Below are positions 13,513 to 47,858 of a stretch of DNA of 64,000 nt, piece by piece (the first letter of the stretch is position 1; every line of letters starts with the position of its first letter). The position numbers and the translations under genes are program-made. Under the pieces are notes generated by a model. It was given only the letters and a program-made list of their open reading frames with translations. It had not been told where the DNA came from and searched no databases. The stretch lies in contig CANRJF010000003.1 of NCBI GenBank assembly GCA_947630855.1, forward strand, positions 1-64,000, in the 5' to 3' direction. This DNA comes from an uncultured Lachnospiraceae bacterium (GTDB lineage: Bacteria; Bacillota; Clostridia; Lachnospirales; Lachnospiraceae).

Positions 13513-14973
13513 TTATTTTAATTTAATACTGGATAAATCATAATATTTCTTTACGGCTTTATTTCTCCAGTCCTTTTTATTACCTGTAATATCGTCAAAG
13601 TAAAGCAATGGGGGCCGGACGCTGTAAGGTGAAACTACTACGTCTTTTCCAGTACTGTTCATTAGAATTTCTGCTCTCTCATAGGCTTCATTAGAATAAA
13701 TTTTTGCCTGTCCGTCTGCCAATAATCCCACAGAATAGAAAATACCAGCTTCATTTCCCGATGTAAGTACCATGCCTATAAACAGACAGCACACTGTACA
13801 AATCCAGCCTTTTGAAAGCCCTATGTCTTCTTTATTCTTATTTACAGGAATTAGTTTTTCCTGTACCCAGCCGCATAAGTAAAAAACATTTATAAAAGTT
13901 AATAAAATAAAGGTAAAGTATACAATATTAAGCAATCTTCCTGCACCAAAATTTCCCATAGCATAAAGTGGTGGACAAAACATTGCGCAGACTCCGCCTA
14001 TGGAAAACAGCAAAACCAGAAGGGGACATGGAAATTTATACCCGGATGTTTTACGAAACTTTTTTATTGTATCATATATTACGGGAAGAAGTATCACAAT
14101 ACACACAATCAATGCAATTCCAATCCAGGAATTGATATAATCCAATCCTGTCAATAAAGATGCCTTTACAGACTGAAATACGGTATATCCATTTTCAAAT
14201 TTGCTCTGCCGTATTGCTGTTCCCGGTGATGTAACATTAAAAATAAATCCTCCCACTGTAACAATAAGAACCAATATATTCCATCTGTATTTTTTGGCTA
14301 TTTTTATCGAAAATCCTAAAACACAAAGCAGGAATAAATATAAAATGGCCATAAAGGCTGTCACATGATTTCCGCCAGCGATTATAAAACCGGTCACGCA
14401 TCCGCCTGTAATCCGAAAGAGCTTATTTTTAAATTGATTTGCATGTCCTATGGATACGGTAATACATATCAGAATTTCAAGCAGGGAAAAAAAGAACACA
14501 TAATTTACGGCTCCATTATACCAGTAAAGACCTTCTACGAATGAGGGCATCCATTGTATCATAAGAAAACTCAGTGTACATCCTGCCGCTGCTCCTGCCA
14601 GTTTGCTGCCATTTAGCACGTTGTGAATCATATAAACAGAAAACAAGATGTTCCCCATAAAAATAATAGATAACATCAAAATTCCTGTTAATGCGTAATA
14701 GCTTTCGCCAAAAATGCCTGGCTGTAATGCCAATAAAAATGCAGATGTATACAGCCCCTGCCATGTGTGCCAGTATTCTGCTGATGTCTCTAGCGCAGTC
14801 TTTATCACAGACAGAAGAGAACCATTTTCCTTCCAGTCATGATACGTTTTTATGGCATATGAAAAATCATCCGCCGAAGGATGGTTGTATGTAGATAATA
14901 TAAGCAAAGGCAGTATAGACAACACAGTTACCAGAATAATACACCACAGATATATTTTTATCTCTTTTTTCAT
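13513..14973 (-). CDS. DUF6056-like polytopic membrane protein
   Basis: A 486-residue protein with about 11 membrane helices. After the first helix comes YNHPSADDFSYAIKTYHDW, then EYWHTWQGLYTSAFLLALQP, a pattern I associate with the DUF6056 family of clostridia, which has a GT-C glycosyltransferase-like topology with acidic residues in the first outer loop. A role in surface polysaccharide or lipid glycosylation is inferred only. The ATG at 14973 has AGGAAGGAG upstream. Confidence 0.65.
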   Translation of the reverse strand: MKKEIKIYLWCIILVTVLSILPLLILSTYNHPSADDFSYAIKTYHDWKENGSLLSVIKTALETSAEYWHTWQGLYTSAFLLALQPGIFGESYYALTGILMLSIIFMGNILFSVYMIHNVLNGSKLAGAAAGCTLSFLMIQWMPSFVEGLYWYNGAVNYVFFFSLLEILICITVSIGHANQFKNKLFRITGGCVTGFIIAGGNHVTAFMAILYLFLLCVLGFSIKIAKKYRWNILVLIVTVGGFIFNVTSPGTAIRQSKFENGYTVFQSVKASLLTGLDYINSWIGIALIVCIVILLPVIYDTIKKFRKTSGYKFPCPLLVLLFSIGGVCAMFCPPLYAMGNFGAGRLLNIVYFTFILLTFINVFYLCGWVQEKLIPVNKNKEDIGLSKGWICTVCCLFIGMVLTSGNEAGIFYSVGLLADGQAKIYSNEAYERAEILMNSTGKDVVVSPYSVRPPLLYFDDITGNKKDWRNKAVKKYYDLSSIKLK

Positions 14974-39150: not shown

Positions 39151-39336
39151 CTATGAGTCGGGAGATGTATTTTTTTTCTCCTGCTCTTCTTTTTCTAAGG
39201 CTTCCAGTCCAAGCCGTATAAGTTCCACCGTTGCCTGTGAACGTGTTTGATAGCGATATTCATAACGGAAATCTTCTATTTTCTGAAACAGTTCATCATC
39301 CACGGAAACGGTATACCTGGGTCTATTTGTAGACAT
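39151..39336 (-). CDS. Ribbon-helix-helix (CopG-like) protein
   Basis: A 61-residue protein from the ATG at 39336 (GAGGTGAT upstream). The pattern PRYTVSVDDELFQKIEDFR, then TRSQATVELIRLGLEAL, is a ribbon strand plus two helices, as in CopG/Arc DNA binders. It is divergent from the RHH gene at 39605, with about 270 bp of control DNA between them. Either could act there. No toxin partner is adjacent. Confidence 0.75.
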   Translation of the reverse strand: MSTNRPRYTVSVDDELFQKIEDFRYEYRYQTRSQATVELIRLGLEALEKEEQEKKNTSPDS

Positions 39337-39520
39337 GCGCATCACCTCATTTGTGATTATACCGAAGTAGGGCAAGGATGTAAAGAAAACAAACGACTTA
39401 AATTAAAGTTCCGAATTAACAAAAACTACCTGTAAAATAAAGTAGTGCAAATTGTATTCTTCACAAAGTGTATTTGCGGATTATTGTTTTTAAATTATAA
39501 TGCAAATATTTATTTTTTTA

Positions 39521-39575
39521 TTGACATTGGTTCACTGAACCATTATAATAAGCAATATGGTGATTCACTGAACCA
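39521..39575 (+). promoter_or_regulatory. Consensus promoter with GGTTCACTGAACC operator, copy A
   Basis: TTGACA (39521-39526), 17 nt, TATAAT (39544-39549). The spacer holds the perfect 15-bp palindrome TGGTTCA-C-TGAACCA (39528-39542). A near copy, TGATTCA-C-TGAACCA (39561-39575), lies 33 bp downstream. The same palindrome occurs in the promoter at 43491-43520. The RHH gene follows at 39605. Confidence 0.8.
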
Positions 39576-39604: not shown

Positions 39605-39790
39605 ATGGCTGCGAAACTGAAACGTTACTCAATTTCTGTTCCTATTGTCATGAAAGCAGAACTGGATTCATTGAAGTCCAACCGTTACGAAAAGATGACA
39701 GTGAACGGAATGCTCTGTGATTTAATCCTTCGGGGATTAGATTCCGTGGAGCGGCAGAATGAGAGCAATAAATGCGAAGTAGGTATGTAG
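39605..39790 (+). CDS. Ribbon-helix-helix protein RHH1, likely autoregulator
   Basis: A 61-residue protein behind GAGGAGG. It has KLKRYSISVPIVMKAELDSL (ribbon and first helix) and NGMLCDLILRGLDSVE (second helix). It is a clear paralogue of the protein at 47679 (KRYS, LDSLKS/LDTLKS, MLCDLIL, GL-SVE shared). It lies 55 bp after a promoter with two palindromic operators, so autorepression is likely, and it probably also acts on the same site at 43498. Confidence 0.72.
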   Translation: MAAKLKRYSISVPIVMKAELDSLKSNRYEKMTVNGMLCDLILRGLDSVERQNESNKCEVGM

Positions 39791-39852: not shown

Positions 39853-40692
39853 ATGACAGAACTCAAAATGAAATTGAAACCAGGTCTTGTAAAACGTGGA
39901 CTGGCAGTTGCTCTTGCAATCGTGCTGGGCGTCAGCATGATTCCTGACACATTTGCGTCGGCGTCAGGGAAAAATGTTGAAGCAAGTACGCGCGGAGAGT
40001 CTAACACAGACCCAAGTGGAAAAACTGACCCAAACCCAAGTGGAAAAACTGACCCAAACCCAAGTGGAAAAACTGACCCAAACCCGACGAACAATGATGA
40101 CAACAACACAAACACAAATACGTCAGATACGAACAAACCGGGAACTACCCAGACAACAACAACTGAGACTCCTAAGAATGTGGCAGTTACCGGCGTGGTT
40201 GTAACCTATGATGGTGCAAATGTAAAAGGTACAGTTACTATTAAGAAGGGAACAAAGTACAAGTTTAAGGCAGAAATTACCCCGGACAATGCAACGGATA
40301 AGACAGTAACATGGTCTACATCCAATGATAAGATTGCAACCGTTACAGCCGATGGCGTTGTAAAGGGCAAAAAAGCCGGAAAAGCTACCATAACTGCAAA
40401 AGCAGGAGATAAAACAGCCAGCTTTAAGGTTAAAGTCCAGACAAAGAAAGTAACCCTTAAAAATGTAAAGATGAGCAAGAAAAAGATTAAGTTAAAGAAA
40501 GGGGAAACTGCAGAACTTACGGCAACTAAAAATCCGGTGACAGCTTCAGGAAAGATTAAATGGAGTACTTCCAATAAGAAAGTAGTTACCGTAAAGAATG
40601 GTAAACTTAAGGCAAAAAAACCCGGAAAAGCTACCATTACAGCAAAAGTAGGCAATAAAAAAGCTACATGTAAAGTTACAGTAAAGAAATAA
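39853..40692 (+). CDS. Secreted Big_2-domain surface protein with Pro/Asp-rich repeats
   Basis: A 279-residue protein. A basic N-terminus and hydrophobic segment (GLAVALAIVLGVSMI) ending near ASASG form a signal peptide. A low-complexity linker with DPNPSGKT repeats follows, then two bacterial Ig-like (Big_2) domains at about 110-195 and 197-279 (VTWSTSNDKIATVTADG, IKWSTSNKKVVTVKNG). There is no LPxTG anchor; the very basic C-terminus may bind the wall. AACAGGAGG precedes the ATG. The last domain is paralogous to the end of the protein at 44006. Confidence 0.82.
   Translation: MTELKMKLKPGLVKRGLAVALAIVLGVSMIPDTFASASGKNVEASTRGESNTDPSGKTDPNPSGKTDPNPSGKTDPNPTNNDDNNTNTNTSDTNKPGTTQTTTTETPKNVAVTGVVVTYDGANVKGTVTIKKGTKYKFKAEITPDNATDKTVTWSTSNDKIATVTADGVVKGKKAGKATITAKAGDKTASFKVKVQTKKVTLKNVKMSKKKIKLKKGETAELTATKNPVTASGKIKWSTSNKKVVTVKNGKLKAKKPGKATITAKVGNKKATCKVTVKK
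40009..40089 (+). repeat. In-frame 24-nt tandem repeat
   Basis: GACCCAAACCCAAGTGGA plus AAAACT is repeated exactly at 40027-40050 and 40051-40074, with an 18-nt partial unit before and a diverging unit after. It encodes the DPNPSGKT linker and should vary in number between strains by slippage. Confidence 0.8.
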
Positions 40693-40706
40693 TGTGTGAA
40701 AATTGT

Positions 40707-40733
40707 CAGGCTGCCTGTATGTTTGGCAGCCTG
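40707..40733 (+). terminator. Hairpin after Big_2 gene (weak terminator or processing site)
   Basis: CAGGCTGCC (40707-40715), 9-nt loop, GGCAGCCTG (40725-40733). The following sequence is not T-rich, so read-through to the ligase-like gene is likely. It argues against translation starting at the ATG overlapping the previous stop (40692). Confidence 0.5.
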
Positions 40734-40775
40734 GCCAATAAAAATACATATCAGGTATGCATAATTAGAAAAAGC

Positions 40776-42317
40776 ATGAAAAGAGAAATTGGTTTTAATG
40801 ATTCACCCGTGGATTTAATGGCATATGGCGCCGCATATATTTATCTGGTGCTGATGCTCCTTGTTTTTCCATTATATCATTATGACGGTTTTAACGGATT
40901 AAACGAAAAGAAAATTGTTTTTTTTATCGCAGTGACAGGAATATTCGGAATAATATGCCTGTTCCCTTTCATCAGGAATTTATACTTTTGTCATCATGAA
41001 ATATTGAAGAAAAAATGGCTGTCCGCAGATATAGCTGCTTTATGTTTTTTGGGAAGCATTTGTTTATCAGGAGTTGTTTCCATGGACAGGCAGGAAATGT
41101 TTTCTCCGACAGTAGGGAAGCGTATAGGTTTTTTTGTGATGTTTTTATGTATCATTGCATATTTTTGCGTACAAAGTTATGCGAAATGGGATGCCATATT
41201 GTTCTGGTGTTATCTGTTGGGAAGCGGGGGTATATATCTTTGGGGAATTTTATTAAACTGTAAAGTAAATTTATTCCATATACGGGAAACGTTCTATTTG
41301 AAAGAAGAAATGGCGATTTATGTCAGCCCCATTGGAAATATTAATTATAATGCCGCTTTTCTTGCATTGGCATTGCCGGCAGCAATGGCGATGTATTTGA
41401 TATGTAAAGAGCAGTTTACAAAAAATGTTTTAACCATATACCTTTTCCTTGGATTTTTGGATATGGTTCTTTTGCGCTCGGACAGTATTTATCCTGCAAT
41501 GGCGGCGGTATTTTGTGTATTATTTTACTTTGCCCTGGGAGGTAAGGAATATTTTAGGCGTTTCTGCCAGATGACCTGTTTATTGTTTTTTGCAGGAATA
41601 GCCACATTTCTTTTATATAGATGGATTCCGGGCAGAATGTATACAATGGAAGGAATTGGATGTTTATTTTTAGAACCATCTATATTAAGCATTGAAGTTA
41701 TTATAATACTTATTTGCTGCCTGGCGGGAAGAAATTATTCCCCAAAAAAAGAAATATGCCATACATTACAGAAAATATGGTTGTTATTGGTTATTGCGGC
41801 AGTTATATTGTTTGTTATATTTTTACTATGTATCAATATGTTTTTTCAGGAAAAGACCGTAGGGGCTTTCTGGGAGCCATTTGTTTTAACAGATACTTTC
41901 GGACATGGAAGAGGTTATATCTGGCGGCGCATTCCAAAAGTTTATATGGATTTTCCATGGAAAAATAAGCTGTTTGGGTGTGGTTTGAATTGTTTTAATA
42001 TGGCGGTGGCACCGTATTACAGGGAAGAGATGTTAAGTATTGACGGCACTGTTTTTTATGGAGCCCATAATGAATTCCTTAATCTCTTAATGGAGACAGG
42101 GATTGTGGGAACAGTAAGTTATTTTGGCATAATATTTGGGACATTTGCCCATGCCGTAAAAGGCCTGGCTAAAAATCCTATGAATATTGCTGTTATAGCT
42201 ACCATCTGTTCTTATCTGATTCAGGGGCTTGTAAATGATATTACGATTTTTACACTTTCATTGTTTTTTATTTTTTTAGGATGTGTCAACTCACCACACA
42301 GTGTTTTAGAAGAATAA
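40776..42317 (+). CDS. O-antigen ligase-like polytopic membrane protein (Wzy_C type)
   Basis: About 513 residues from the ATG at 40776 (weak ribosome site; 40692 is an alternative). It has about 12 membrane helices and a large outer loop ending in the Wzy_C-like stretch GCGLNCFNMAVAPYY and YGAHNEFLNLLMETGIVGT, which carries the His and Glu typical of ligases and polymerases of surface polysaccharides. It probably links or polymerises sugar or teichoic-type chains outside the membrane (inferred). A degraded copy of its 3' part is at 43362-43425. Confidence 0.78.
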   Translation: MKREIGFNDSPVDLMAYGAAYIYLVLMLLVFPLYHYDGFNGLNEKKIVFFIAVTGIFGIICLFPFIRNLYFCHHEILKKKWLSADIAALCFLGSICLSGVVSMDRQEMFSPTVGKRIGFFVMFLCIIAYFCVQSYAKWDAILFWCYLLGSGGIYLWGILLNCKVNLFHIRETFYLKEEMAIYVSPIGNINYNAAFLALALPAAMAMYLICKEQFTKNVLTIYLFLGFLDMVLLRSDSIYPAMAAVFCVLFYFALGGKEYFRRFCQMTCLLFFAGIATFLLYRWIPGRMYTMEGIGCLFLEPSILSIEVIIILICCLAGRNYSPKKEICHTLQKIWLLLVIAAVILFVIFLLCINMFFQEKTVGAFWEPFVLTDTFGHGRGYIWRRIPKVYMDFPWKNKLFGCGLNCFNMAVAPYYREEMLSIDGTVFYGAHNEFLNLLMETGIVGTVSYFGIIFGTFAHAVKGLAKNPMNIAVIATICSYLIQGLVNDITIFTLSLFFIFLGCVNSPHSVLEE

Positions 42318-42384
42318 ATATGATAAATAATCCTATGATTTGAAAATAAATTAGCCAGACAGAAGAAATTGTTTTTCTCATTGG

Positions 42385-42410
42385 GCCGGTGATTGTCACC
42401 GGCTTTTCCC
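42385..42410 (+). terminator. Intrinsic terminator after ligase-like gene
   Basis: GCCGGTGA (42385-42392), TTG loop, TCACCGGC (42396-42403), then TTTT. The same hairpin with flanks recurs at 43434-43452. Confidence 0.8.
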
Positions 42411-42477
42411 ATGTCGTAAAACCGGAACAATATATAAATATGAGATGATCAGAGCAATTGATAGATGGAAAAGAATG

Positions 42478-42603: not shown

Positions 42604-42699
42604 ATGAATGTTACATACCCTGATTTATTTCAGTTTTGTATATTTGTTGTTGCTCTTGTGGGATTATGCTATACAATCTTCAAGGGCAAAGGAAAATAG
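42604..42699 (+). CDS. Type I toxin, Hol_Tox-like 31-residue membrane peptide, copy 2
   Basis: A 31-residue peptide: MNVTYPDLFQF, a hydrophobic helix (CIFVVALVGLCYTIF) and a basic tail KGKGK. It shares TY-DL-Q, ALxGLCYTxFKGK and exact length with the peptide at 4049. AAAGGAGGG lies 8-10 nt before the ATG. Probably a membrane-acting toxin silenced by the antisense RNA from 42793. Confidence 0.72.
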   Translation: MNVTYPDLFQFCIFVVALVGLCYTIFKGKGK

Positions 42700-42793
42700 C
42701 CGCTGCTACTCCCAATAGCAACGGCTGACCTCATAAGAGGTTATGTACTGTTTATCGGAGGGTAGAGCCGTTTCTATGGCTTTCCCTTTTGCT
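42685..42793 (-). ncRNA. Antisense antitoxin RNA, copy 2
   Basis: A minus-strand promoter TTGCAA (42823-42828), 17 nt, TATATT (42800-42805) with TGC before it. The RNA would run through the toxin 3' UTR to the hairpin AGCCG-c-TGCTA / TAGCA-a-CGGCT (42698-42726), followed on that strand by ATTTTCCTTT. Compared with copy 1 the inner stem changed on both sides (CACTA/TAGTG to TGCTA/TAGCA), so the structure is conserved. Confidence 0.62.
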
Positions 42794-42851
42794 ATGTTCA
42801 ATATAGCATATCTTTTGGAGGTTTGCAAGAAGATTCTTTCTTCAATTATTA

Positions 42852-42880
42852 TTGAATTTTGCTTCAATGCATATTATTAT
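42852..42880 (+). promoter_or_regulatory. Promoter of RelB-type antitoxin gene
   Basis: TTGAAT (42852-42857), 17 nt, TATTAT (42875-42880), within inverted TCAATT/AATTGA arms (42842-42886). The homologous promoter sits before RHH2 at 47574-47602. Confidence 0.55.
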
Positions 42881-42903
42881 GAATTGAGAAAGGAAGTGAT
42901 AGC

Positions 42904-43179
42904 ATGGCTACGGTAAGCCTTCAATTTGATGATGAAATGAAAAAACGACTTGATGAGATGTGCGATGAAATGGGAATGAACCTTACCACCTTTTTTATGA
43001 TTTATGCAAAAAAAGCCCTGCGTGATCGGAGAATACCCTTTGAAATAACAGCCTCTATGGATTCTTTTTACTCTGATTCCAATATGGAATATTTGCGTCA
43101 AGCTGACAATCAGGTCCAAAACGGGCAAGTTGTGATAAAAACCATAGAGGAATTGGAGAGGGAAAACCAGAACCACTAA
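42904..43179 (+). CDS. RelB/DinJ-family type II antitoxin
   Basis: A 91-residue protein. An N-terminal ribbon-helix-helix (MATVSLQFDDEMKKRLDEMC, GMNLTTFFMIYAKKALRDR) is followed by IPFEITASMDSFYSDSNMEYL, typical of RelB/DinJ antitoxins, and a C-terminal toxin-binding tail. GAAAGGAAGTGAT precedes the ATG. The downstream toxin survives only as a C-terminal fragment, so this is an orphan antitoxin that may still bind DNA or protect against a homologous toxin elsewhere. Confidence 0.85.
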   Translation: MATVSLQFDDEMKKRLDEMCDEMGMNLTTFFMIYAKKALRDRRIPFEITASMDSFYSDSNMEYLRQADNQVQNGQVVIKTIEELERENQNH

Positions 43180-43298
43180 AAGGCATTCATAAGGGAAAAT
43201 GGAGCAGGCGAATCAATGATAAAGACAGGCTTGTCTACGAAGTCAATGAAGATGGCATTACTGTAAAACAGTGCAGGGGACATTATGATGACAAGTAA
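43173..43298 (+). pseudogene. Txe/YoeB toxin remnant (C-terminal half only)
   Basis: Forty-one codons in another frame overlap the last codons of the antitoxin gene. They read PLKGIHKGKWSRRINDKDRL, then VYEV and CRGHYDDK, matching the C-terminal half of Txe/YoeB mRNA interferases, including the Arg-rich active-site strand and the final His-Tyr. The N-terminal half (about 45 residues) is absent and no start remains. A deletion joined the antitoxin end to the middle of the toxin gene. Confidence 0.82.
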
Positions 43299-43305
43299 TA
43301 TTTAT

Positions 43306-43490: not shown

Positions 43491-43520
43491 TTGATTGTGG
43501 TTCACTGAACCAACTATAAT
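43491..43520 (+). promoter_or_regulatory. Promoter with GGTTCACTGAACC operator, copy B
   Basis: TTGATT (43491-43496), 18 nt, TATAAT (43515-43520). The spacer contains the perfect palindrome TGGTTCA-C-TGAACCA (43498-43512), identical to 39528-39542. It follows the duplicated terminator and points toward the large surface-protein gene at 44006. Confidence 0.75.
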
Positions 43521-43570: not shown

Positions 43571-43630
43571 AAAAAGCATGAAGTATTAAAAAACGTGCCT
43601 GGAAGGGCAGGCTTGTGCCCTGCTTTTTTA
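43571..43630 (+). terminator. Leader terminator/attenuator before surface-protein gene
   Basis: AAAAAAGCA (43571-43579) pairs with TGCTTTTTT (43622-43630), with an inner stem GGGCA/TGCCC (43606-43621). It ends in six T residues about 100 nt after the operator promoter, so most transcripts should stop here. A three-codon ORF (ATG AAG TAT TAA, 43579-43590) overlaps the 5' arm. Confidence 0.5.
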
Positions 43631-44005: not shown

Positions 44006-47000
44006 ATGAAAAAGGGAAAAGGATTTTTATTATTAGCAATGCTGCTTTTTATTATGTCGTGTATGCTTCTGCCGGAAACGACAGCGGCAGAGCAGGTTAG
44101 ACCGGAGGCAGAAAAAGCAGAAGAAACAAAAGAAGAATCAGACGGGCAGTCGCAGCAGACGGCGGGAGAAACCGAAGAAGAACAGACGGACTTAATAACA
44201 GTGGAGGCAGAAATCCAGGGTGCATACCAGTTTGGTGATATGCCTTCTTCGGCAGAGAACGAGATTGCCTTTTTTTCTATGGATCAGCCGGATGAAGAAA
44301 AAGAAGAGGCAGCAAAGGAGTTTATTTATCGGTCGTTGATGAAGGGGGAGAAAGGTGTTGATATTTCCGATTATGACATACCGGTCAGCAGGTTAAATGG
44401 CATGCTTGCCAGCCTTTTAAATGAGCATGCGGATCTTTATTTTGTTAGTCAAAGATATTCATATAGTTGTGTTGATATCGACAGTAGTGTAGACAGTAGT
44501 GTATATATACTGATATTTACTTTCGTGGAGACTGATGGTGAGGCGTTTTACAAGGAAACCAGGGCAGCTCTTTCGGTTGTGAAAGAAGGCATGAGCGATT
44601 TGCAGAAAGTAATAGCGCTGCATGACTATCTGGCGATAAATTGTGAATATGATAAGGAAAATTATGATAATCATACTATTCCGGACGAGTCTTATTCGGC
44701 ATATGGCGTGCTGGTCAATCATACAGGCGTGTGCAATGGATACGCGCTAGCATACGGTTATTTGCTGGAACAGGTGGGGATTAGAAGCTTTAAGGTCAGA
44801 AGCGCTGCAATGAATCATGCCTGGAATCTGGTTGAACTGGACGGTTCCTATTATCATGTGGATGTGACATGGGATGATCCCACATGGGATCTTGTTGGCA
44901 GGGCCAGACATCAATATATGCTAAAAAGTGATAATGCCCTTGCTGGCCATTACGATTGGGAAGTTTCGGGTGAGGGTTATTCTGCTGCCAATACAAAATA
45001 TGACAATGTGTTTTGGAATGATGTAGATTCCCCCTTGGTATTGGACGGAGAGCAGTGGAACGATTGTTATTATATTATATTTGACAGTAGGAGCAAAACT
45101 GGAAAAATAAAAAAGACCTCTTTATCAACTCTGTCGGATGCAGGAACTGAGATTGCCGATATCGGCAGGTGGGAAAACAAAAATTGGTATTGGGGGAAGG
45201 CTTATTCCGGGCTTTCCCTGTATCAGAATCGTTTGTATTATAATGATACTTCTTCTATATGCAGTATCGCAAAAGACGGGACGGATAAACGAGTGGAATT
45301 TGAGGCGGATACCACCAGCGGCTATATATATGGAAGTGCCTTTTGCCAGGGGAAAGTGTGCTATTCTCTGCATACGACGCCGAATTTCACAGGAAAGGAA
45401 ACGGTTTTAACGGCGGATATTGCCATTAAAGAGGAAGAGCCAACTGAGTTTCCGGTTAAAAAGGTTCTCTTAAGTGAGGATGAACTGGTGCTGTTAGAAG
45501 GAGAAACGGCAGTGTTGCAGGCTTCTCTTGCTCCGGCTTATACAACAGTAACAGATTCCGATATTTCATGGGAAAGCAGCAACCCTTCTGTTGCCACAGT
45601 ACAAAATGGCACAGTAACTGCTGTTTCGGCAGGGCAGTGTACGATTACGGCAACAGCAGGAGGGAAGCAGGGAACTTGTGAACTTAAAGTCTATGCTGGT
45701 CATCATCAGGGTGATATTGCGTCAGGCCGTGATGGAAGAATTGTCTGGAGAATTGATGCAAACGGAACGCTGATACTGGAAGGAACGGGAGATTTCCAGG
45801 AAAAAAGAACTGAAAGGCCTTGGAGTTGGGATTATAAGGAAAAAATCAAAGCTGCCAAAATCAATGTATCAAAGATAACAGATGTTTCTTATTTATTATA
45901 TGGATGTTCAAATTTGGAGAGTATTGAAATTAGCGGATTCGATACAAGCAGAGTAACAGATATGTCGTTTATGTTTACCGGGTGCAGCAGCCTGTCAGAT
46001 TTGGATTTGAGCGGTCTTGATACTGTCAATGTAACAAATATGTCGAGTATGTTTAGTGGATGTAGCAGCTTGACGAATTTGGATGTCAGTGGATTTGACA
46101 CAAGCAGAGTAACAGATATGTCGTTTATGTTTAGTGGATGTAGCAGTTTGACAAACTTGGATCTTAGTAGTTTTGATACAAGCAGCTTGGTGTATACGTA
46201 TAATATGTTTTATTTTTCTTTTAATTTGAAGAATTTGGATCTTAGCAGATTTGATACAAGCAACGTAATAGATATGGAGTATATGTCACGTATGCTTGTT
46301 GGTTGTTTAGATCTTGAGGAAGTTAGGTTTCCAGCCAATCTTGCGAAGGCTATTGCTCTCCCGCAACAGGAAGGCAATCATTGGGAGGATGAAAATGGGG
46401 AAATCAGAAGCGAAGCTGTAAAGGGATTACCGTCTGCAATGACATATTACAGCGTAGCAGATGGGGAGCAAAATCCGTCAGGCGGTGGTAATGAAGGACA
46501 AAATCCGTCAGGTGATGGTAATGAAGGACAAGCACCGTCAGAAGGCAGCGAAACGCCCAACCCATCGGGGGGTGGAGAAGGACAAAGCCCATCTGAAGGG
46601 AACGGGGAACAGGATTCTTCTAATCCGAATCAGGGCAACACTGATCAAAAACCAGATACGTCCACTACGCCAACTGAAACGTCAGGAAGTGATTCTGTGA
46701 CAAGCGTGAATTTGAATAAAACAAGCGTAACACTTCTGAGAGGAAAAACAATTTTATTGACAGCAGCCGTTGAACCGAACAATGCAATAGACAAAACTGT
46801 GAAATGGTCAACTTCTGATAATAAGGTTGCAACCGTTACAAATAATGGCAACGTCGAAGCAATTGGTATGGGGGAAGCGACTATCACTGCGCAGGCAGGC
46901 GGCAAGACAGCAACATGCAAGGTGACAGTACCTGAAGTAAAGCTGACAGCCACATCTGCTCCATTGCAAGTGAAAAGTTCTACAACAGCAATTAAAGTTG

Positions 47001-47422
47001 ACGAGAAGTATCCTTTCAACGATAAAGTGAAATCCTGGGAATCTTCCAACAAAAAGGTGGCTGCGGTTAATAAAAACGGTAAGATTACTGCGAAGAAAAA
47101 AGGAACAGCTAAAATTACAGTTACTATGGAGAGTGGCGCTACGGCAACATGTAAGATTACAGTCCAGACCAAGAAAGTAACCACTAAGAAGCTTAAGATG
47201 AGCCAGAAGAAGATTATTTTAAATAAAGGCAAGAGCCAGAAACTTGAAGTAACCAGAAATCCAATCACTGCAACAGAGAAGATTACCTGGAGCAGCAGTA
47301 AGCAGTCAGTAGTTACCGTTAACAAAAACGGCAAAGTAAAAGCAAAGAAAAAAGGAACGGCTACAATCACTGCCAAGACATCAAATGGCAAAAAGGCTAC
47401 CTGTAAGATTACTGTAAAATAG
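44006..47422 (+). CDS. Large secreted multidomain surface protein: transglutaminase-like, BspA/DUF285 repeats, Big_2
   Basis: A 1138-residue protein. Start 44006 is set by AAGAGGTGAT. The signal peptide (FLLLAMLLFIMSCMLLPETTA) could also be a lipobox ending at Cys. After an acidic linker comes a transglutaminase/protease-like domain (about 195-300) with Cys243 in GVCNGYA, His271 in NHAWN and Asp286 in HVDVTWDD. A Big_2 domain (about 480-565), four or five BspA/DUF285 repeats (FDTSRVTDMSFMF-GCSSL), a Gly/Pro/Ser-rich linker and three C-terminal Big_2 domains follow. No LPxTG. A likely surface enzyme or adhesin. Confidence 0.85.
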   Translation: MKKGKGFLLLAMLLFIMSCMLLPETTAAEQVRPEAEKAEETKEESDGQSQQTAGETEEEQTDLITVEAEIQGAYQFGDMPSSAENEIAFFSMDQPDEEKEEAAKEFIYRSLMKGEKGVDISDYDIPVSRLNGMLASLLNEHADLYFVSQRYSYSCVDIDSSVDSSVYILIFTFVETDGEAFYKETRAALSVVKEGMSDLQKVIALHDYLAINCEYDKENYDNHTIPDESYSAYGVLVNHTGVCNGYALAYGYLLEQVGIRSFKVRSAAMNHAWNLVELDGSYYHVDVTWDDPTWDLVGRARHQYMLKSDNALAGHYDWEVSGEGYSAANTKYDNVFWNDVDSPLVLDGEQWNDCYYIIFDSRSKTGKIKKTSLSTLSDAGTEIADIGRWENKNWYWGKAYSGLSLYQNRLYYNDTSSICSIAKDGTDKRVEFEADTTSGYIYGSAFCQGKVCYSLHTTPNFTGKETVLTADIAIKEEEPTEFPVKKVLLSEDELVLLEGETAVLQASLAPAYTTVTDSDISWESSNPSVATVQNGTVTAVSAGQCTITATAGGKQGTCELKVYAGHHQGDIASGRDGRIVWRIDANGTLILEGTGDFQEKRTERPWSWDYKEKIKAAKINVSKITDVSYLLYGCSNLESIEISGFDTSRVTDMSFMFTGCSSLSDLDLSGLDTVNVTNMSSMFSGCSSLTNLDVSGFDTSRVTDMSFMFSGCSSLTNLDLSSFDTSSLVYTYNMFYFSFNLKNLDLSRFDTSNVIDMEYMSRMLVGCLDLEEVRFPANLAKAIALPQQEGNHWEDENGEIRSEAVKGLPSAMTYYSVADGEQNPSGGGNEGQNPSGDGNEGQAPSEGSETPNPSGGGEGQSPSEGNGEQDSSNPNQGNTDQKPDTSTTPTETSGSDSVTSVNLNKTSVTLLRGKTILLTAAVEPNNAIDKTVKWSTSDNKVATVTNNGNVEAIGMGEATITAQAGGKTATCKVTVPEVKLTATSAPLQVKSSTTAIKVDEKYPFNDKVKSWESSNKKVAAVNKNGKITAKKKGTAKITVTMESGATATCKITVQTKKVTTKKLKMSQKKIILNKGKSQKLEVTRNPITATEKITWSSSKQSVVTVNKNGKVKAKKKGTATITAKTSNGKKATCKITVK

Positions 47423-47515
47423 CCGCCACTATTTGATAGCAACTGCTGACTTCATAAGGGGATAAGTTGTATTTTACGGAGGGTAGAGCCGCTTCTGTGG
47501 CTTTGCCCTTTTGTT
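47408..47515 (-). ncRNA. Orphan antitoxin RNA remnant, copy 3
   Basis: From the stop codon of the surface-protein gene onward the sequence matches the 3' part of the type I loci: AAAATAGCCGCCACTA, GGAGGGTAGAGCCG, TTCTGTGGCTTTGCCC, and TGCTATATT on the minus strand (-10 at 47522-47527). No toxin ORF precedes it. The -35 has changed to CTACAA (47545-47550) and the terminator hairpin pairs poorly (AGCCG versus CTGCT), so it is probably decaying, though a weak RNA is possible. Confidence 0.55.
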
Positions 47516-47573
47516 ATGTTCAATATAGCATATCTTTTGAAGGCTTGTAGGAAGATTTTTTCCTCAATTATTA

Positions 47574-47602
47574 TTGCATTTTGATTTCATTCATATTATC
47601 AT
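47574..47602 (+). promoter_or_regulatory. Promoter of RHH2 gene
   Basis: TTGCAT (47574-47579), 17 nt, TATCAT (47597-47602). It is homologous to the RelB promoter at 42852-42880, and the DNA from the antitoxin promoter through this point is a duplicate of 42790-42895. Confidence 0.5.
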
Positions 47603-47678
47603 CAATTGAAAAAGGAAGCAGACATGTCATAATTATATGAATAGCGGTTTATGAACTAATTTGAAGGGAGGGAAAAAC

Positions 47679-47858
47679 ATGGCTGCAAGTCTGAAACGCT
47701 ATTCTGTTTACGTGTCTGATGCTATGAAAGAAGAATTGGATACTTTAAAATCAACTCAATATGCAAAAGCAACAGCAAACAGTATGCTCTGCGATTTAAT
47801 TCTTTTGGGTTTAAATTCCGTGGAACACAAGGACAGTGTTAGAGAAGATGGAAAGTGA
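47679..47858 (+). CDS. Ribbon-helix-helix protein RHH2, paralogue of RHH1
   Basis: A 59-residue protein from the ATG at 47679 (GAAGGGAGGG upstream; the frame opens at a TTG at 47661). It has SLKRYSVYVSDAMKEELDTL and NSMLCDLILLGLNSVE, aligning end to end with the protein at 39605. A related half-site pattern (GGTTTATGAACT, 47646-47657) lies just upstream. It probably binds DNA as a dimer; targets may include the palindromes at 39528 and 43498. Confidence 0.7.
   Translation: MAASLKRYSVYVSDAMKEELDTLKSTQYAKATANSMLCDLILLGLNSVEHKDSVREDGK

Follow-up and report, generated by a model that had tools for sequence, protein, structure and literature searches.

What does a 15-base palindrome that sits inside a consensus promoter, directly ahead of a small RHH gene, control, and through which protein? 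The initial annotation of the DNA analysed here, a 64,000-nt stretch (the window; genome-wide counts refer to the 3.93-Mb genome), predicted one small regulator that tunes two surface proteins at once. Our results point to a different arrangement, in which the locus is quite probably an RHH-pair switch laid out like P22 immI, with binding, repression and surface output as predictions. Two divergent putative RHH repressor genes were present in the window, and they and their surroundings were assigned as follows.

39154-39336, minus strand: RHH2, 61 aa, in the Mnt position, divergent from RHH1
39356-39384, minus strand: RHH2 promoter, TTTACA-17-TATAAT (11/12), without an operator unit, unlike most other loci
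39521-39549, plus strand: promoter P1, -35 TTGACA at 39521-39526 and -10 TATAAT at 39544-39549 (12/12)
39528-39542, strandless: operator 1, TGGTTCACTGAACCA, occupying the P1 spacer
39561-39575, strandless: operator 2, TGATTCACTGAACCA, in the predicted leader, one mismatch to operator 1
39605-39790, plus strand: RHH1, 61 aa, in the Arc position
39853-40692, plus strand: secreted Big_2 surface protein, 279 aa (Big_2, E 1e-24)
40692-42317, plus strand: Wzy_C (O-antigen ligase-like) membrane protein (Wzy_C, E 1.7e-12)
47679-47858, plus strand: RHH3, 59 aa, RHH1 paralog, without an operator of its own

The promoter architecture was as the initial annotation had described it. The palindrome filled the 17-nt spacer of P1 (TTGGTTCACTGAACCAT), upstream of the predicted start site, and the near copy followed at a 33-bp register, ahead of the small RHH reading frame (39605-39787). 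The window contained six matches to the palindrome with up to three mismatches against a mean of 1.67, and this number was reached by 3 of 100 shuffles, so that the excess was only modestly unusual. The genome scan that had been suggested gave a stronger result, the genome-wide rarity of the core: GGTTCANTGAACC occurred at two sites only in 3.93 Mb, both at this locus. A genome-wide regulon was rejected because the core was confined to the locus. When one mismatch was allowed in the 15-mer, the sole further place in the genome was a coding sequence, and this near match (C71) was discarded as a further operator. The palindrome as a widespread Lachnospiraceae motif was likewise rejected, since TGGTTCANTGAACCA was present in one other of 397 family genomes, as an isolated site.

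RHH2 was placed in the RHH superfamily by its profile match to PHROG 4738 'transcriptional repressor' (E 7e-11). Its match to the NikR RHH domain had an E value of 2e-6, under that family's cutoff, one member of the RHH2 family matched Pfam RHH_1 (E 0.007), and PDB sequence searches with RHH2 returned weak NikR matches. RHH1 alone was below the Pfam cutoffs and was not called an RHH protein by Pfam; its profile was related to that of RHH2 in a profile-profile comparison (hhalign, 96.5%). PDB sequence searches yielded no convincing relative of RHH1. A first structure model of this protein was poor, and a second was plausible (extended N-terminus and two helices, pLDDT 81), with an uninformative fold search. 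The paralog RHH3 shared 56-63% identity with RHH1. In RHH3, residue 11 in the predicted DNA-binding strand is Tyr, not Ser (KRYSVYV vs KRYSISV), and its specificity may therefore have changed.

Subsequently, the distribution of the two genes and the palindrome was compared within the genus (15 genomes; the named relatives are Roseburia sp.). RHH1 homologs were found in 4 of the 15 genomes and RHH2 in the same four, the two always co-occurring, and the mismatch-free core was restricted to these four genomes, which carry RHH1 and the divergent RHH2. RHH2 was 80-85% identical in the three congeners. A scan of genome contigs with RHH1 alone gave no match, and the contig scan with the RHH1 alignment recovered three Roseburia contigs. 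In all three congeners the RHH1 promoter had operator units, G402 with a degenerate copy in the spacer, and the Big_2 gene alongside had a promoter of its own that again carried an operator pair. The RHH2 promoter had no operator in the genus. In G402, a short ORF whose start resembles a signal peptide was preceded by a further operator, AGGTTCACTGAACCC (L033 13799-14065, 14089-14103).

Beyond the genus, 19 divergent RHH2/RHH1 loci from Lachnospiraceae, other Clostridia and phage contigs, including phiCD27, were compared. In these loci the RHH1 promoter matched the consensus at 11-12 of 12 positions. Its 17-18-nt spacer contained operator units, another site followed, and the RHH2 promoter spacer usually carried an operator unit as well. 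Some homologous promoters had direct repeats in place of the palindromes, namely TGAACC units spaced 8 bp apart, few per promoter. The half-sites TGAACC/GGTTCA reached 19.3/kb in the RHH2-RHH1 intergenic regions of 12 loci vs 0.41/kb elsewhere, an enrichment of about 47-fold. A second Lachnospiraceae genus had the divergent pair in six genomes. The spacer read GTGAACCAGTGAACCAC in these loci (GTGAATCAGTGAACCAC in one); another site came past the -10 element, and the RHH2 promoter spacer contained a unit too. The placement was kept in more distant Clostridia and the units had diverged, as with GTGTATCACTGATACAC in G184. In that genome (L113 8482-8633), GTGTATCACTGATACAC in the RHH1 promoter was matched by TCAGTGATACACTGA in the RHH2 promoter, and this parallel change suggests co-divergence of protein and operator.

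These comparisons support the view that the 15-base palindrome is operator-like and linked to the RHH pair, and to this extent the earlier reading of it as a regulator site stood; its extension to the 1141-aa surface protein did not, as described below. It is conceivable that another transcription factor binds the palindrome and that the RHH genes are mere targets, and the presence of the operator does track the whole locus as well as the RHH genes. However, the units stay with the RHH pair in other genera and in phages, where its neighbours differ, and they diverge together with it, as in G184; we regard a separate factor as quite unlikely. The palindromes are also inverted repeats, as would be expected of RNA hairpins or recombination sites, and could have arisen by chance. 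Against this, operator 1 lies upstream of the predicted start site, direct repeats occupy the same place in homologous promoters, the half-sites show the enrichment given above, and Rfam gave no match. An RNA or recombination role was rejected on the direct-repeat versions and the negative Rfam result, and the three possibilities taken together, chance included, appear extremely unlikely.

We then considered what the operator-like sites would control. In the window, RHH1 is followed by the Big_2 gene and then the Wzy_C gene, and no terminator-like site was found between RHH1 and the Big_2 gene. An RHH-autoregulated surface-protein operon is well supported, with binding and repression as its predicted mechanism. 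In the proposed switch, RHH2 and RHH1 would be transcribed divergently, with RHH1 heading an operon that includes the Big_2 and Wzy_C genes. RHH dimers would bind the TGAACC half-sites in the P1 spacer and just past the start site and would exclude RNA polymerase from P1, so that RHH1 itself and the surface operon would be repressed. RHH2, whose own promoter lacks a unit in the window, would probably repress constantly, with RHH1 providing the feedback. The Big_2 protein is Ser/Thr-rich and secreted and adjoins the Wzy_C protein (39853-42317), as it does in the congeners; the Wzy_C protein might glycosylate its neighbour.

Surface genes downstream of RHH1 were found in three genera. In the second genus, five of the six loci had a gene for a small protein and one for a giant surface protein after RHH1, and the two giant proteins scanned contained Cna_B domains; the sixth locus, on a 3.8-kb contig, looked prophage-like. 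In G111, an SLH-domain protein came next after RHH1, and after it two more proteins that are putatively secreted. The chromosomal copies in G033, G595, G709 and G468 had no evident surface gene adjoining.

The second surface gene of the window lies further downstream, with the following features.

43491-43520, plus strand: promoter P2, TTGATT-18-TATAAT (10/12), with an identical operator copy at 43498-43512
43604-43621, plus strand: predicted terminator-like hairpin downstream of P2
43931-43959, plus strand: promoter of the large surface gene, TTGAAA-17-TATAAT (11/12), separate from P2
44006-47422, plus strand: large surface protein, 1141 aa (transglutaminase, DUF285 and Big_2 domains)

The initial annotation had placed the identical palindrome in the promoter facing this gene, and proposed that the operators at 39528 and 43498 bring both surface proteins under one RHH regulator. 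The copy was confirmed, and its promoter reads in the same direction as the large gene, but P2 does not appear to be the promoter that drives this gene. P2 is 486 bp upstream of the ATG at 44006, and a three-codon ORF, the terminator-like hairpin and then the separate 11/12 promoter intervene. The 120-nt region with the hairpin had a folding z of -2.5, and its minimum-energy fold used an alternative hairpin. Over 48 bp, P2 matched P1 at 80% identity, and directly upstream of P2 (43352-43484) lay a wzy fragment (a copy of 41917-41991) and a terminator fragment (a copy of 42375-42435), which are signs of rearrangement. P2 is a probable duplicated remnant of P1, and an attenuated leader is less likely. 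Moreover, the second operator pair of the congeners belongs to their small Big_2 gene. Because P2 is remnant-like and a terminator-like hairpin and a separate promoter intervene, joint control of both surface proteins is unsupported; we consider it unlikely, and the large surface protein is probably not under operator control.

Several other elements were observed around the large surface gene. A 205-bp stretch of 83% identity was duplicated on both sides of it (42693-42896 and 47416-47618). A hydrophobic 31-aa ORF at 42604-42699, a putative type I toxin, matched Hol_Tox with an E value of 5e-5, just over the cutoff. A RelB/DinJ-family antitoxin (TIGR02384) was located at 42904-43179, followed at about 43170-43300 by sequence resembling a truncated toxin fragment.

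The proposed RHH-pair switch was next set against known systems. Like P22 immI, it has two small divergent repressor genes, mnt being divergent from arc, and the arc-side gene is the first in its operon (PMC2629481). In both, an operator lies between the -35 and -10 elements of the arc-side promoter and a second site lies downstream; in the P22 record, the first is inside the arc/ant promoter (14798-14818 within 14793-14821) and the second just downstream (14822-14844). The P22 sites are the arc operator in the promoter and the mnt operator downstream, whereas the same half-site family is found at both sites here. The output also differs, being ant in P22 and surface genes (Big_2, Wzy_C) in the window, with no ant after RHH1. 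Homology of RHH1 and RHH2 to Arc and Mnt was not detectable (hhalign probabilities 0.1 and 3.8) and was rejected, and for this reason the locus is likened to immI, not classed as a member.

AmrZ of Pseudomonas aeruginosa, reported to resemble Arc and Mnt most closely, is a chromosomally encoded RHH protein that acts as its own repressor and also controls surface structures; unlike the pair described here, it is a single longer protein (108 aa) that both activates and represses targets genome-wide (PMC3325190). The RHH protein Omega (ParB) of plasmid pSM19035 acts on short direct or inverted units overlapping promoters (PMC9499535). These are 7-bp WATCACW units in arrays of 7-10, and Omega serves partition with ParA (PMC9499535), whereas the units at the present loci are TGAACC, few per promoter; no ParA match was found among the scanned neighbours of the locus.

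In the Clostridioides phage phiCD27 (gp47/gp48/gp49) and related viral contigs, a homologous RHH2/RHH1 pair had the same promoter-operator design, with related half-sites. These copies are phage-borne. The gene after RHH1 is annotated as anti-repressor in phiCD27, and for the L088 copy it was found to encode pRha and ANT domains. An antirepressor followed RHH1 only in the phage copies. The bacteria thus appear to have the module in common with temperate Clostridia phages, in which RHH1 can precede an antirepressor, and in several bacterial lineages surface-protein genes occupy that position.

As for direction, the RHH pair could be an old chromosomal regulator of surface proteins that phages captured; syntenic chromosomal copies occur in several species of two genera, and the small-protein tree is weakly resolved. 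In that tree, however, the phage copies fall between surface-linked clades (modest support), and the prophage-like G415 copy shares an identical RHH2 with a viral contig. phiCD27, for its part, carries the complete set of repressors and antirepressor. We find a host origin possible but doubtful. Repeated uptake of the pair from phages is favoured, because the tree sets the phage copies between the surface-linked ones.

On a more tentative level, gut Clostridia may have acquired a lysogeny-type RHH/RHH switch more than once and put it to use, with surface genes replacing the antirepressor, to turn cell-surface proteins on or off, possibly in a bistable manner. If so, the surface proteins of a host could come under cross-regulation by resident or incoming phages that have this module, and phage-host cross-talk through shared operators is predicted. 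A phage-style decision circuit would thereby be linked to surface-protein control in gut Lachnospiraceae. In the literature searched, which was covered in part, no description of the RHH2/RHH1 module was found. phiCD27 has been reported to be without identifiable CI and Cro homologs (PMC11172241), and its RHH2/RHH1 pair (gp47/gp48) is a candidate part of its lysogeny control.
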